A program made the position numbers and the translations under genes. The notes under the pieces are model-generated. The model was not told where the DNA came from, made no database searches, and was given only the letters and a program-made list of their open reading frames with translations. This document shows positions 32,054 to 37,061 of a stretch of 64,000 nucleotides of DNA, piece by piece. How positions within the stretch are numbered: position 1 is the first letter of the stretch; each line of letters opens with the position of its first letter. The stretch comes from Gammaproteobacteria bacterium (GTDB lineage Bacteria > Pseudomonadota > Gammaproteobacteria > Ga0077536), in NCBI GenBank assembly GCA_021773835.1, contig JAJFJQ010000062.1, positions 62,001 to 126,000 of the forward strand, in the 5' to 3' direction.

Positions 32054-33757
32054 TTAGGCCGGCCCGTAGTGTTGCCGTAACCACGATTCAAGGGTCAATA
32101 GCAGCCAGATCTTGATGCCGATCCGTGGTCGATGCCCAAGCAGTCGGCGTGACATCAGGGATTCAAGATAATCCCGCCGTATCAATCCGTAAGGCGCTAA
32201 GCCATCGAGTAGACGCTCGCGTGCGAATGCCTGATGCGGTCCCTGAAACCATTGTTCAACCGGCACCAACATGCCGCTTTTCGGTCGCTCGATAACGCTC
32301 GCCGGTAGCAAGTCTCGAACCGCTTCTTTGAGTAGATACTTCTCGACCGACCCACGCAGCTTTAGGTTCGCTGGGATGGAGAAGGCGTAGGCGACAACAC
32401 TGCGATCGAATAACGGTGAGCGCGCGAGTACAGCATGTGGCGCGGATAATGCGTCGACCTTTGGCAGGATGTGGTGCGCACCTTTGAAAACAACGTTTAC
32501 AGCCATCAGCCGATTGATAAAACTCGGATAGCGACTATCTGCTAGCCATCCGGTGATCTCTGATTCCAAGATGTTCTCGGAAATGCCCTCCAGCATATCG
32601 TCGCTCAGCATGCGGGGGAAATCGTCGTAGCATTTTTGATGCGCGCGTAGGAATCTGGCCTCGCGGGAATCGTTCGTGGCTTCGAACATGTTACCGGTTC
32701 CGAACAGCTCGGATAGCAGCATCGGCAGGTTCTTCGGACCGCCGAAACAGGGGTCGCCGCCTTCGCCATTTAGCATTACCCGAACGTCGCCAGACGCCTG
32801 CTCAAACAGAAGGTAGTTCGGTACGGTCAAGGGGTCGCCGTTGGGTTTATCGAGCTTTGCTATTGTCCGGTCGAAGTTCTCGGCGATGAGCTCAGGTGCC
32901 ATTTCGACCACGCGATGACGTGTCTTGCAATGTTGGGCTACCAGCGAACTCCATTCGAGTTCATTCGCATAACCGTCGCCAAATGAAACGGAGTAAGTGT
33001 TGATCTGGGCGCCGAGGCGGCAGCTCGCGAGCGCAACGACGAGGCTCGAATCGACACCACCTGACAGCGATGCGCCGATTGCGTGTGGGCCTGCGAGGCG
33101 ACGATCGATTGCAGTGTTTAGTCGTGTTCGTAGCGTTTCACGTTGCTGGGCTTCGCTAGCAGTGATCGATTCAGGCTCTGACGGTGTACGCCAAATACGT
33201 GTAGCCGTGAGCTTACCGTTCGACCAGTGCAACTGCTCTCCCGGCAAGACCTCGAACACCCCCTCAATCAAGGTCGGCGCGCCCGGGAGATAGGCATAGG
33301 CAAGATACCGAGCGACCGAAATGCAATCGATACGTTTGTCGATCTGTACTGCCGCGAGAACTGCATCGAGCGTGCTGGCGAACACGAACCGCGTGCTATC
33401 CGCGTAGTAGTAAGCGGTTCGCTCACCGACTCCATCACGCACGAGGTTAATACCGCCGGAGGCGTCGATCCAGGCGATCGTAAATGGCCCCTCAATTGCT
33501 TCTAAACGTCGTTCATTAACGACGATCCGCCAATCATCCACGCCGTCTATGTTGTGGACACCGTCGTAGCAGTTGTCCCAGTCACCAACGAAGGAACTAT
33601 TGTTATCGAGCATGCTTGCATTGCGCCCGAGTGCAGCTGCACAACGCTTATTTGCGTGGATGGCATCGCGGCCGGCGCCCCCGCCAATTGCCCGACGACT
33701 AGATCCACCTGTTGGACCCTGTTGGCCGACATTCAAACTTGTATATTTGCTAACCAA
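32054..33757 (-). CDS. Asparagine-synthetase-like protein without recognisable glutaminase site
   Basis: This protein of about 567 residues (if it starts at the TTG at 33757) has a degenerate N-terminal half and an intact ATP-pyrophosphatase domain with the PP-loop SGGVDSS and the EGGDPCFGG motif. In real AsnB the chain begins MCGI with catalytic Cys2 and later has NGEIYN; neither is present here. The start is uncertain: the TTG at 33757 overlaps the previous stop, while the first ATG in frame is at 33613 and would drop a Gly-rich segment of about 48 residues. It is the last of four genes in a coupled run. It may activate a carboxyl group with ATP and join it to an amine that is not glutamine-derived; this is inference. 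Confidence 0.75.
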   Translation of the reverse strand: MVSKYTSLNVGQQGPTGGSSRRAIGGGAGRDAIHANKRCAAALGRNASMLDNNSSFVGDWDNCYDGVHNIDGVDDWRIVVNERRLEAIEGPFTIAWIDASGGINLVRDGVGERTAYYYADSTRFVFASTLDAVLAAVQIDKRIDCISVARYLAYAYLPGAPTLIEGVFEVLPGEQLHWSNGKLTATRIWRTPSEPESITASEAQQRETLRTRLNTAIDRRLAGPHAIGASLSGGVDSSLVVALASCRLGAQINTYSVSFGDGYANELEWSSLVAQHCKTRHRVVEMAPELIAENFDRTIAKLDKPNGDPLTVPNYLLFEQASGDVRVMLNGEGGDPCFGGPKNLPMLLSELFGTGNMFEATNDSREARFLRAHQKCYDDFPRMLSDDMLEGISENILESEITGWLADSRYPSFINRLMAVNVVFKGAHHILPKVDALSAPHAVLARSPLFDRSVVAYAFSIPANLKLRGSVEKYLLKEAVRDLLPASVIERPKSGMLVPVEQWFQGPHQAFARERLLDGLAPYGLIRRDYLESLMSRRLLGHRPRIGIKIWLLLTLESWLRQHYGPA

Positions 33758-34733
33758 ATGAGTCGTGATGGTGGCCGCTAATGGCGATAAATACTGCCCG
33801 AATGATCTGCTCAGGACGCAGAGCGGCGAGCTCAAGCGAATAAACCGATAGCCAGGAGGCCTCCTTTTTGCTCACCCCATTACCAACTGGAACGGGTTTA
33901 TGTTTTGGCTCGATCAAGAGCCCTCGGTAGCGTTTCGCGTGATGTGGGCGCAAGCCCACGTCGATGACCTCGCGGCCTTCAAACCAGTCTGCATCATGCG
34001 CAAGACGATGGGCGAGGCGGCAGCCCGCGCCTGTTGCATCATGTAAGGCATAGATCTCAAGTCGGGGATTGCGCCGGAGCATGGTGCGAACAGTCTCGAA
34101 TACATGGGGTGGATAACCCTCAATGGACAATACCGCGCAGTTGTTTTCGAAGTGAAAATTGTTGGCGAGCAACAGATCTACGGTACGTGCGCGATCACAA
34201 ATAACAACGCGATCGAATGAATATTCGACAACGTCGGGTTCACTTGTAACGGGCGTGTCTCGGGTGCTGCGTCGGGTTAGGACGCTTTCCGGTCTACCAT
34301 GTATTTGCTGCCATCGCTCCCACATTCGATTGAATTTCTTGAGTGTCACTGGCAATTGGTTGCGCGACGTCAACCACCGTCCCGCGTAGATGATGAATAC
34401 CACGCCCGTAAACAACGTTGCGTAGGCGGCATATGGATGAGCGCTAACGATATAGGTGGCGAAGAAAACGAGCACAAGGGAAGCAACGACGATAAGCGTT
34501 CTGCCATGCGGACGCCATCCGGGGCGTCGTCGGCAAACTTCGTAATAGAGGTGTTCTACGCCCCAACGCAAGTGGCCGTTGGACGAAACCGCATTAATCG
34601 CATTTTGAAACGCGAGGTCGGTTAGTATATCGCCCCCGTTTGGGTCGAACGCGAACGATTTTCGACATTTCGGACACGTTCGCTGGAATCGCTCACGGCG
34701 TTTTGAATCGTAATCACAGCGGATACAAATCAT
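33750..34733 (-). CDS. Zinc-ribbon membrane protein of unknown function
   Basis: This 327-residue protein begins with a zinc ribbon (C3, C6, C20, C23: CIRC and CPKC), followed by a helical spacer, two membrane segments (about 80-97 and 101-118) that would form a hairpin, and a cytoplasmic C-terminal domain (about 170-320). Within that domain a beta strand with RVVICDRA, an SIEGY segment and an IYALHDATGAG segment alternate with helices, a layout reminiscent of Toprim or other Rossmann-like folds, but the key acidic residues do not match clearly. I do not recognise the family. The ATG overlaps the stop of the upstream asparagine-synthetase-like gene by four bases; the downstream one overlaps its own stop. 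Confidence 0.75.
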   Translation of the reverse strand: MICIRCDYDSKRRERFQRTCPKCRKSFAFDPNGGDILTDLAFQNAINAVSSNGHLRWGVEHLYYEVCRRRPGWRPHGRTLIVVASLVLVFFATYIVSAHPYAAYATLFTGVVFIIYAGRWLTSRNQLPVTLKKFNRMWERWQQIHGRPESVLTRRSTRDTPVTSEPDVVEYSFDRVVICDRARTVDLLLANNFHFENNCAVLSIEGYPPHVFETVRTMLRRNPRLEIYALHDATGAGCRLAHRLAHDADWFEGREVIDVGLRPHHAKRYRGLLIEPKHKPVPVGNGVSKKEASWLSVYSLELAALRPEQIIRAVFIAISGHHHDSFG

Positions 34734-36460
34734 GTCGGCTTGCGGCCGCGGCCATCAATGAAGATCCGCATCCACGCTTCTAGCATTGCGAGTGTCCACA
34801 GGCGTTCTCCGATGCGGCGTCGCCGCGGATCAGCAGGATGGACACGTCCTTCAAGTAGTCGCTCAACATAAGCTTCGCGAAACATTCCGCGGGTTCGGAT
34901 CGCGTTGGAACTCAGGAGATCACGCATTGTTGTACCAAGCGGCCCCTGTTGCCATTCGGTCATGGGGACACTCATACCGAACTTTCGCCGCCAAACAATA
35001 TCGTCTGGCAATCGATTTTGCAGCACGAGTTTTAAAACATATTTCTCCGCCGCGCCGCGTAGTTTCATTGTCGACGGTAGGGCGAACGCGTGCTCGGCGA
35101 GCTGCCGGTCGAATAAGGGTACGCGAACGTCAAGGCCCCACGCATTTGCCGTTCGTTCGGCGCGCGGTAATATATTTTGCGATCCTTTAAGCGCAATGTC
35201 GGCTAGACGCATACGACCGAGAAACGTTGTCGCTGTGTCGCTGGAAACATATGGTGCGAGGTGCGAACGGCGTTGGCCGGGACCACCTACGTCGGCCTTG
35301 AACTGTGACGTATAGAGGGCGTCTTCCTCGCCATAGAACCGATGATAAGACCGTAGATAGGTCTCTTCGCGAGATTCTTCCGCGTACAGTCCGGCATAAA
35401 TCTCTGCCGATATCATTGGCTTGTTGGTCCATCCGCCAAACAACTGGTCGCCGCCCTCACCATTGAACACGGTCTCCAGGTCGGCTTCTCGTGCAGCGCG
35501 AGCGAGTAGGTATTGCGGGCCTGTCACGGGATCGCCGAAGGGGAGATCGAGCTTCCACACGAGATCGAGAAATATGGCGTCGATATCCGCGCCGTCTGCC
35601 GCTACAAATCGCAGTGGTAGATCAAGATGATCTGCCACGATGCGAGCTTGCTCGCGCTCAACGCTCTCGTTACCAAAGTCGAGACTGAAGCACTCCACAT
35701 CGACGCCGCTACGTGCCAACCAGTACGCGACACCGGCAGAATCGATACCACCAGAGAGGAACACGCCGACGCGTTGCTCTCCATTCAAGCGGTTCTCGAC
35801 CGCGCGCCGCCAACCGATACGCGTGCGTCGCACCGCTTCGTTTTGATCCGATAAGAGCCTGTCGATATTTTCGCTGGGCGCGAAATAGGGCTCGCTCTCT
35901 ACCACGCCGTGTTTAACGCGTGCTACGTGACCTGGAAGCAAGCGACGTATGCCCTTGATCGGAATATGTTCTCCAGGCACAAACGAAAAGGTAAGGTATT
36001 TGTGCACGACCACTGGGTCGATTTCGATCGGCAATATCTCAATCGCCAGGAGTTGTTTGAGCTCTGAGGCGAAATAGAAAGTCCCGGCGTGCACGGTATA
36101 GTAAAGCGAGCGCACGCCGAACGGATCGCGTACGAGCGTTAGCATTTCTGCCTCAATATCGAAGTGAGCTGCCGCGAAGGCGCCGTCGGCGCCGTCAAAT
36201 CCAAGGTCGATGCGTCTGTGCACCTCTATCGCCGGCGAGTTTACGGCCGGTGCAAATGTCCCTGCGCAGGCGACGGCAAACGTATTTTCTCGTTCAATCC
36301 CGTGGGATTTGCCGGGACGGCCTTGCCACCAGCGGTAGCCGAGGCCTGCGTTATCTAGGATAAGGGTGTCGCTAGTGTCGCCCCGGTAATCAATCGCGCC
36401 AAGCATCCGATCGAGCAATGCCGATGAGCCAGCACCGACATAACCGCAGATCCCGCTCAT
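34730..36460 (-). CDS. Asparagine-synthetase-like protein with Ser in place of the catalytic Cys2
   Basis: This 576-residue protein looks like class B asparagine synthetase but begins MSGICGYVG, so the nucleophilic Cys2 of the glutaminase domain is Ser, and the NGEIYN motif is missing. The ATP-pyrophosphatase half is intact: PP-loop SGGIDS at 236-241, the acidic segment SLDFGNESVE near 259-268, EGGDQLFGGW at 335-344, and the C-terminal VRVPLFDR and LRGAAEKYVLK. This suggests an enzyme that adenylates a carboxyl group and uses ammonia or another amine. The start overlaps the stop of the upstream membrane protein gene (ATGA). It is clearly a paralogue of the second such protein in the same run. 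Confidence 0.85.
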   Translation of the reverse strand: MSGICGYVGAGSSALLDRMLGAIDYRGDTSDTLILDNAGLGYRWWQGRPGKSHGIERENTFAVACAGTFAPAVNSPAIEVHRRIDLGFDGADGAFAAAHFDIEAEMLTLVRDPFGVRSLYYTVHAGTFYFASELKQLLAIEILPIEIDPVVVHKYLTFSFVPGEHIPIKGIRRLLPGHVARVKHGVVESEPYFAPSENIDRLLSDQNEAVRRTRIGWRRAVENRLNGEQRVGVFLSGGIDSAGVAYWLARSGVDVECFSLDFGNESVEREQARIVADHLDLPLRFVAADGADIDAIFLDLVWKLDLPFGDPVTGPQYLLARAAREADLETVFNGEGGDQLFGGWTNKPMISAEIYAGLYAEESREETYLRSYHRFYGEEDALYTSQFKADVGGPGQRRSHLAPYVSSDTATTFLGRMRLADIALKGSQNILPRAERTANAWGLDVRVPLFDRQLAEHAFALPSTMKLRGAAEKYVLKLVLQNRLPDDIVWRRKFGMSVPMTEWQQGPLGTTMRDLLSSNAIRTRGMFREAYVERLLEGRVHPADPRRRRIGERLWTLAMLEAWMRIFIDGRGRKPT

Positions 36461-36996
36461 TCACCAAACCTTTGTTCGACATTAAACGTCATCGAACGCA
36501 ACTCTCGGTCGCCGACGGCTATCGACACGCTCCAACGACCGATTGGTGAGTCACCGGTAAATCGGTGTCTACAATGCGTGGGCCAGATCGGTTTGTCGAT
36601 GCGCGAGGTAGAGTATTCGACGACTTCGACGACAATCCCACCTGGTTCGGTCCATTCGCAAACCATATCTAGCCGTCGACCTACAGGGGCGCCATTCAGC
36701 GTGACATGAAAATAAATCATCTCCGTTGCGCCCAGCCTGATGTTGCCTAGACGACTTTCGCCGCCGACGGATTCTGATAGCAATGGATTTTCGGCGGTCA
36801 TGCGGCTTTTCGTCGACTCGCTCCACACCAATAGTGCAGCCACGATGACGATGATCAGTACCGTTCCAAAAACGGCGAACGTGACGAAGATGCGACGCCG
36901 CTCACCGTCGCCTAGTTCACCGACTGGCGAGCGTGGTGGCAACAACTCGTTATCCCAGTCTTGATGCTTGGGGTCTTGTTCCGATTGATCGCCCAT
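36457..36996 (-). CDS. Single-pass membrane protein of unknown function
   Basis: This is a protein of about 179 residues from the ATG at 36996, which has AGGA just upstream; a GTG at 37014 would add six residues. The N-terminus is acidic and hydrophilic (about 1-32), then GERRRIF leads into one hydrophobic segment (about 37-58), and the rest (about 70-179) is predicted beta-rich. With the positive residues before the segment the long domain should face the periplasm. Its last strands (GRWSVSIAVGD, then MTFNVEQ) recall a small beta-sandwich fold such as those in DUF2914-type proteins, but I have no firm match. Its stop overlaps the start of the Ser2 asparagine-synthetase-like gene. Confidence 0.7.
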   Translation of the reverse strand: MGDQSEQDPKHQDWDNELLPPRSPVGELGDGERRRIFVTFAVFGTVLIIVIVAALLVWSESTKSRMTAENPLLSESVGGESRLGNIRLGATEMIYFHVTLNGAPVGRRLDMVCEWTEPGGIVVEVVEYSTSRIDKPIWPTHCRHRFTGDSPIGRWSVSIAVGDRELRSMTFNVEQRFGE

Positions 36997-37061
36997 AGTC
37001 CTAGCTTCCCGCACGTTTTTTTAGCGTAGTGAGACGCTTTCGGCGGAAAGGCTGACGGCGT

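Follow-up and report, generated by a model that had tools for sequence, protein, structure and literature searches.

A bacterial gene run with two AsnB-fold ligases and a tailed zinc-ribbon membrane protein: a candidate protein-tail ligation system

Introduction

A stretch of 64,000 nucleotides from a gammaproteobacterial genome of the lineage Ga0077536 (contig JAJFJQ010000062.1, positions 62,001 to 126,000; hereafter the window) contains a run of four genes, which encode a single-pass membrane protein (SPM), an AsnB-fold ligase (AsnB1), a zinc-ribbon membrane protein (ZR) and a second AsnB-fold ligase (AsnB2). A preliminary description of the window, made from its letters alone, proposed that the two enzymes and the two membrane proteins could form a membrane-linked amide-forming system. 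Here, the run is compared with its relatives in other bacteria and with the nearest known systems, and the C-terminal tail of ZR is put forward as a possible substrate of AsnB2. L and G designations are our labels for loci and genomes, respectively.

The locus and its products

All four genes are on the minus strand in a head-to-tail arrangement, as previously described (Table 1). The SPM/AsnB1 junction (36457-36460) and the AsnB1/ZR junction (34730-34733) are both overlaps of exactly four bases, whereas the third junction, which had been called a near overlap, depends on the TTG codon that is chosen as the start of AsnB2: TTG 33757 gives an 8-base overlap with ZR and TTG 33736 a 13-base gap. 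Both ligases match the Pfam family Asn_synthase (PF00733), AsnB1 with 226 bits and AsnB2 with 223 bits, and SPM possesses one hydrophobic segment, in agreement with its designation as a single-pass protein. Neither SPM nor ZR matched a family of Pfam, NCBIfam or PADLOC. The view of ZR as a zinc-ribbon double-pass protein is borne out by a CxxC...CxxC motif and two predicted helices, but it overlooked a Toprim domain and a C-terminal tag.

Table 1. Features of the gene run in the window and LysA-like proteins encoded at related loci
Feature	Position	Strand	Description
SPM	36457-37014	-	Start GTG 37014 or ATG 36996, same frame
AsnB1	34730-36460	-	AsnB-fold ligase, begins MSGICGYVG
AsnB1 signature NGEGGDQLFGGWTNKPM	Residues 333-349, about 35414-35464	-	
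ZR	33750-34733	-	Zinc ribbon, membrane hairpin, degenerate Toprim domain of the TopoVI-A/Spo11 type, C-terminal -DSFG
ZR zinc ribbon	34665-34727	-	Cys3, Cys6, Cys20, Cys23 (CxxC...CxxC)
ZR membrane hairpin	34365-34508	-	Predicted helices 76-98 and 100-123
ZR Toprim domain	Residues 158-322, 33768-34262	-	Assigned by structural comparison
ZR C-terminal tag	33753-33764	-	Asp-Ser-Phe-Gly-COOH
AsnB2	32054-33757	-	Start TTG 33757, alternative TTG 33736; AsnB-fold ligase, eroded glutaminase domain
AsnB2 signature NGEGGDPCFGGPKNLPML	Residues 330-347, numbered from TTG 33757	-	
LysA-like protein	L110:15799-17010	-	PLP lysine replaced by Val
LysA-like proteins	L117, L122, L125, L047, L046, L048, L057, L119, L145		PLP lysine replaced by Val

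Distribution and gene order

A scan of the AsnB2 pair alignment against one genome per species returned 80 loci. By record title (several records are metagenome bins and possibly mislabelled), the SPM-AsnB1-ZR-AsnB2 run or its ZR-AsnB2 core occurs in Planctomycetota, Acidobacteriota, Myxococcota, Cyanobacteriota, Armatimonadota, Verrucomicrobiota, beta- and gamma-proteobacteria and Actinomycetota; the gene set is common to bacteria of at least eight phyla. AsnB1, ZR and AsnB2 are found in the same order, with the genes mostly touching or overlapping, in Planctomycetes, Acidobacteria, Myxococcales, beta-proteobacteria, a cyanobacterium, 'Akkermansia' and Chthonomonadaceae, and several of these loci have an SPM or SPM-like gene upstream. 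Since the same order recurs in such distant phyla, the run goes far beyond what chance would produce. The typical cyanobacterial locus has the order SPM-AsnB1-LysA-like gene-ZR, with a convergent AsnB2 gene. AsnB1 and SPM are lacking in the actinobacterial loci and in a gamma-proteobacterial branch around genome G103. The four-gene unit of the preliminary description recurs, but the minimal conserved core consists of ZR, or its tail, and AsnB2. ZR is encoded in 12 of the 13 genomes tested, also where the AsnB2 gene has no ZR gene beside it, and the exception was one incomplete bin.

A class-wide search with a single sequence detected ZR in 3 of 369 genomes, one of them a weak match and one the genome of the window itself, and neither ZR nor SPM was found in 3 genomes of the window's genus or in about 32 genomes of its family. 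In Planctomycetota, 4 of 199 genomes contained ZR (one weak match, one the query genome). The ZR match of G103 (27% identity) adjoins an AsnB2-like gene, and ZR was present in 22 of 40 genomes of the order to which G103 belongs. This patchy distribution is consistent with transfer; the GC content gave no sign of a recent one, and the viral contigs searched for ZR contained no relatives. The preliminary description could name no known system with these genes, and no account of the gene set was found in the open-access literature, with subscription papers and preprints outside the scope of the search. Genes annotated as hypothetical, asparagine synthase-related or decarboxylase, as at the Gloeothece locus, are parts of one system.

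Two clades of AsnB-fold ligases

The Met-Cys-Gly start of the glutaminase domain, which is present in 15 of 17 comparison AsnB proteins, was found in none of the AsnB1 and AsnB2 proteins examined. The ATP-pyrophosphatase loop (PP-loop) motif SGGxDS and the motif NGEGGD are kept in both. Because the glutaminase cysteine is missing, AsnB1 and AsnB2 can be regarded as amide ligases that do not use glutamine; they would be expected to activate a carboxylate with the help of ATP and to pass it on to an amine that is not ammonia released from glutamine. To this extent, the proposed membrane-linked amide-forming system is strengthened: two AsnB-fold enzymes and membrane proteins form one conserved unit, the PP-loop is retained and the cysteine is gone. 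A tree of 58 synthetase domains recovers AsnB1 (15 rows, support 100/99) and AsnB2 (26 rows, support 100/98) as monophyletic groups, which form a joint clade (100/98) apart from the 17 other AsnB proteins. The signature of AsnB1 is NGEGGDQLFGGWTxKPM and that of AsnB2 NGEGGDPCFGGPKNxPML, whereas the canonical counterpart reads SG[ED]G[GA]DELFGGY; in the pocket, a Glu that is invariant in the comparison set is replaced by Gln or Pro. Lys342 and Asn421 are invariant pocket residues specific to AsnB2.

Assignment to canonical glutamine-hydrolysing AsnB was rejected, as TIGR01536 gave 206.7 and 226.8 bits at a cut-off of 267.1 and the MCG start is gone. The scores for the QueC family PF06508 (18.4 and 21.9 bits for the AsnB proteins of the window) are below the cut-off of 22. 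Structural comparison of the AsnB2 model puts TsnB9 first (Z 30.7), ahead of beta-lactam synthetase (28.0), AsnB (26.1) and carbapenam synthetase (25.6). Beta-lactam synthetase, carbapenam synthetase and TsnB9 share the AsnB fold with AsnB2 (Z 25-31), and the two former make amide bonds without glutamine; however, all three use small-molecule substrates and their sequence identity to AsnB2 is 20-24%. We know of no membrane partner of these three enzymes.

The best-scoring NCBIfam model for the two ligases was TIGR03108 (210.4 and 230.9 bits), and the run might accordingly amidate a surface polysaccharide or exopolysaccharide in the manner of the XrtA/PEP-CTERM system amidotransferase, a system that likewise has a LysA-related protein (TIGR03099). 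The TIGR03108 scores are, however, far under the cut-off of 816.9 bits and the glutaminase Cys is absent. In addition, the AsnB1/AsnB2 clade is separate from the other AsnB proteins tested, and the neighbouring genes include no recurrent exosortase or glycan family, which leaves this as the least probable of the explanations considered here.

ZR joins a degenerate Toprim domain to an N-terminal zinc ribbon and a membrane hairpin

The four zinc-ribbon cysteines of ZR are kept in all 28 aligned homologues. An AlphaFold2 model of ZR reached a predicted local distance difference test score (pLDDT) of 90, and its residues 158-322 match topoisomerase VI-A (TopoVI-A; 1d3y) with Z 12.0 over 154 residues at a root-mean-square deviation of 3.5; further structural matches of the domain are MksG (Z 10.9), JetD (10.1) and Spo11 (8.3). 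A Foldseek search of ZR against the PDB yielded nothing better than E 4.5e-3, with TopoVI-A as the top matches. In 27 of the 28 homologues, Thr, Ser or Asn stands in place of the second Asp of the Toprim DxD motif (HDA[ST]), and the first acidic residue is variable. As the Toprim acids are degenerate, nuclease activity is unlikely, and judged by these residues the domain probably serves in binding or as a scaffold. A LYYE-like helix with a Tyr at alignment column 64 (24 of 28 homologues) contains a putative counterpart of the winged-helix catalytic Tyr. ZR shares the Toprim fold with TopoVI-A/Spo11, MksG and JetD, but differs from them in its degraded acids and in the fusion to a zinc ribbon, a hairpin and a tail.

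The likeness to TopoVI-A, MksG and JetD would fit a role in immunity or conflict, with the TopoVI-A/Spo11-like Toprim protein as the effector, comparable to MksG and JetD in Wadjet, and AsnB modification as the step that arms it; the patchy distribution, which suggests transfer, points in the same direction. Against this stand the degenerate acidic set in the aligned homologues, the housekeeping genes that surround the run in the window, and a PADLOC search (2023 library) whose only result was a weak QueC match of AsnB1 (27.7 bits). A role of this kind is therefore considered very improbable.

In Actinomycetota, the ZR-like paralogues number two or three, and one of them has neither zinc ribbon nor hairpin. 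A protein of this type is encoded at L067:6369-7169 (+) and has equivalents in Streptomyces, Nocardia and Amycolatopsis; it consists of an FTxRQLYYE helix and a Toprim-like domain without zinc ribbon or hairpin, recalls the TopoVI-A/Spo11 core and ends in GF[LM][TS]WP.

The C-terminal tag

All 49 ZR proteins end in Phe-Gly or Tyr-Gly, and 47 of them have an acidic residue directly, or one residue, before the aromatic one. The linker preceding this tag varies freely in length and sequence, and even in the window, where the tail is shortened, DSFG is still kept. In Actinomycetota, the ZR paralogues end in GF[LM][TS]WP instead of an acidic -[FY]G; here, the gene directly upstream of AsnB2 encodes a different protein, whose acidic tail ends in DDDFG, GGDFG or similar at all 51 loci. 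This protein has roughly 160-190 residues, a tail rich in Gly, Asp, Ser and Trp and, in one example examined, one membrane helix. Only one of 714 other called genes in the actinobacterial loci encodes an [FY]G end. That the tail is carried by a different protein in Actinomycetota suggests that it is the functional unit, and a motif that stays at the extreme C-terminus even on a different protein of another phylum is most readily explained by direct recognition by AsnB2, either as a carboxyl substrate or as a docking peptide. The Calothrix locus L110:13106-15667 (-) contains two tandem ZR genes, whose products end in -CFG and -SFG.

If the tail were a docking or regulatory handle, AsnB2, together with AsnB1, would make a small amide metabolite at the membrane and the tail would localise AsnB2 or switch its activity. 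The eroded but retained glutaminase domain leaves a possible binding site, the tail is flexible as docking peptides are, and the enzymes with the nearest folds (TsnB9, beta-lactam synthetase and carbapenam synthetase) make small-molecule amides. On the other hand, the tag is at the extreme C-terminus in 49 of 49 ZR and 51 of 51 actinobacterial tail proteins, and it is general knowledge that docking peptides seldom require an invariant terminal Gly with a free carboxylate; docking alone is thus regarded as possible, though rather unlikely. Even in that case, the two AsnB clades and the nearly obligate partnership are new, and ZR is a relative of TopoVI-A/Spo11 that is bound to the membrane.

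Lasso peptide cyclases of the McjC type also have an AsnB fold with an inactive glutaminase and act on a peptide carboxyl, and a ribosomal-peptide route can be envisaged, in which the tail or a nearby peptide is a precursor that is cyclised by an AsnB protein and freed at the membrane. Two gamma-proteobacterial ZRs, which end in a hydrophobic helix, AxA and a short tail, would be compatible with this, as would an adjacent gene in the genus of G103, which encodes a twin-arginine-like leader and W-x-N repeats. However, the tails are of low complexity with conservation limited to the last residues, and the W-x-N peptide is confined to this one genus among the loci examined. AsnB1 and AsnB2 were rejected as lasso cyclases, as they score 108.7 and 121.6 bits with NF033535, far under its cut-off of 525. 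No precursor, recognition element (RRE) or leader protease family recurs among the neighbours, although short precursors may have escaped notice and the neighbours were compared without RRE or protease models. Such a route appears improbable.

A candidate tail ligation reaction

The explanation we prefer, with a probability of roughly 0.45, is that the run encodes a membrane-anchored protein-tail ligation system, in which AsnB2 acts on the tail carboxylate of ZR. AsnB2 would adenylate a carboxylate in the acidic tail, either that of the terminal Gly or that of the Asp/Glu two to three residues earlier, and join the activated tail to an amine, which might be a small amine or amino acid, another protein or a lipid. 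ZR would be the membrane-bound carrier or substrate, with its degenerate Toprim domain as a scaffold or ligand-binding domain. SPM could contribute a membrane-anchored ectodomain for anchoring or sensing, AsnB1 might form a second amide bond of the same pathway, and a cupin or a LysA-like pseudoenzyme would participate where it is encoded.

In a model of the L050 ZR-AsnB2 tandem, which was read through the stop codon and has no free C-terminus and few truly paired rows, the tail was disordered (pLDDT about 30-50) and undocked, a result that with such an input decides neither for nor against tail ligation. Other points do weigh against it. In ZR proteins of the gamma-proteobacterial branch, a long hydrophobic helix precedes the tail (...LLNLLGAAVVGGALLL...EIDYG), and the tail might be located outside the cytoplasm, away from AsnB2. 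Furthermore, the invariance of the tail could equally be explained by a docking peptide, and its presence on an unrelated actinobacterial protein fits recognition as well as catalysis.

Two known systems resemble the proposed reaction. LysW, a zinc-ribbon carrier with the tail EDWGE, receives an amine on its C-terminal Glu through the action of LysX (PMC10433800). In both cases there is a zinc-ribbon partner whose acidic tail contains an aromatic-Gly motif (EDWGE in LysW, D-x-F-G here) and a ligase that uses ATP to join, in our case presumably, an amine to the tail carboxyl; however, LysX is an ATP-grasp enzyme whereas the neighbouring ligases described here have the AsnB fold, LysW ends in Glu and ZR in Gly (49/49), and LysW is small and soluble whereas ZR is a membrane protein with a Toprim domain. 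Cap9, a PP-loop enzyme of the QueC family, modifies a terminal Gly that is part of a disordered tail, and QatC of the same family probably does so too (PMC13279940). The Cap9 system of type IV CBASS (cyclic-oligonucleotide-based antiphage signalling system) and QatBC likewise pair a PP-loop ATP-pyrophosphatase with a protein whose disordered tail bears a conserved terminal Gly motif, but the Gly is N-terminal there and C-terminal here, the enzymes belong to QueC rather than AsnB, and a role in defence is shown for Cap9 and likely for QatC. The PDB lists BtrK, which is related to LysA, as a decarboxylase of glutamyl attached to a carrier. The parallels to LysW/LysX, Cap9/QatC and BtrK are analogies and not memberships. 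What would be new is the gene combination and the partnership of tail and ligase, the ligation chemistry being drawn from these analogies.

If the tail is the substrate, bacteria of many phyla would modify a protein C-terminus with an asparagine-synthetase-type enzyme, a reaction that is not described in the literature searched, and the invariant motif makes the substrate site directly testable. More tentatively, the run could stand for a new class of C-terminal protein conjugation, in which, in no fewer than eight phyla, an AsnB-fold PP-loop enzyme with a dead glutaminase adenylates the [DE]x[FY]G end of a membrane protein and links it to an amine. Equally tentatively, such a reaction would mirror at the C-terminus the deazaguanylation of N-termini and offer a route based on AsnB besides LysW/LysX and the ubiquitin-like ones.

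SPM, accessory and neighbouring genes

In SPM, the helix (residues 44-62) is followed by a predicted extracytoplasmic domain, in which Cys119, Trp121 and Trp144 are invariant and Cys148 is nearly so. Homologues occupy the same place at L047, L056, L117, L122, L125, L144 and L145, and are encoded divergently at L057 and L058. The proteins encoded at L114:2702-3496 (+), L060:9393-10214 (+) and L059:8927-10228 (+) have an SPM-like N-terminal helix and membrane segment (weak matches) and a different ectodomain, which by eye is carbohydrate-binding-like. Their sequences suggest that sensor domains are exchanged among SPM-like proteins.

Outside Actinomycetota, eight of the first-scanned loci encode a cupin, as do most of those in the gamma-proteobacterial branch; among the actinobacterial loci, no fewer than 33 of 51 do. 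A LysA-like protein is encoded at cyanobacterial and some other loci. The two were found together at no locus, and the tested genomes with a LysA-like gene have no cupin at all. The lysine that forms the Schiff base with pyridoxal phosphate (PLP) in diaminopimelate decarboxylase is replaced by Val in 10 of 10 LysA-like proteins (Table 1), and on this ground the annotation as 'decarboxylase' was rejected; the protein is likely a pseudoenzyme. In the genome of the window, no such cupin and only more distant LysA homologues were found.

The run in the window is flanked by an AA-kinase/acetyltransferase protein, which from its translation we take to resemble N-acetylglutamate synthase, and on the other side by a MaoC-like protein and by proteins that, from their translations, we take to be ClpA-like and ClpS-like. 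At L043:2299-2688 (-) and L168:102-494 (-), in two genomes of one genus, genes for a small protein that carries a twin-arginine-like leader as well as W-x-N repeats (NRPDRNWVNGNRDGWTNRQGC...TWVN[YF]) adjoin those for a coiled-coil membrane protein, AsnB2 and ZR. The small protein resembles cyclophane peptide precursors and matched no NCBIfam model; a general link of the system to W-x-N peptides was discarded, as they were seen only in G103 and G635. In the beta-proteobacterial records L052, L053, L054, L055 and L061, several genes for TctC-like (tripartite tricarboxylate-type) binding proteins flank the run.

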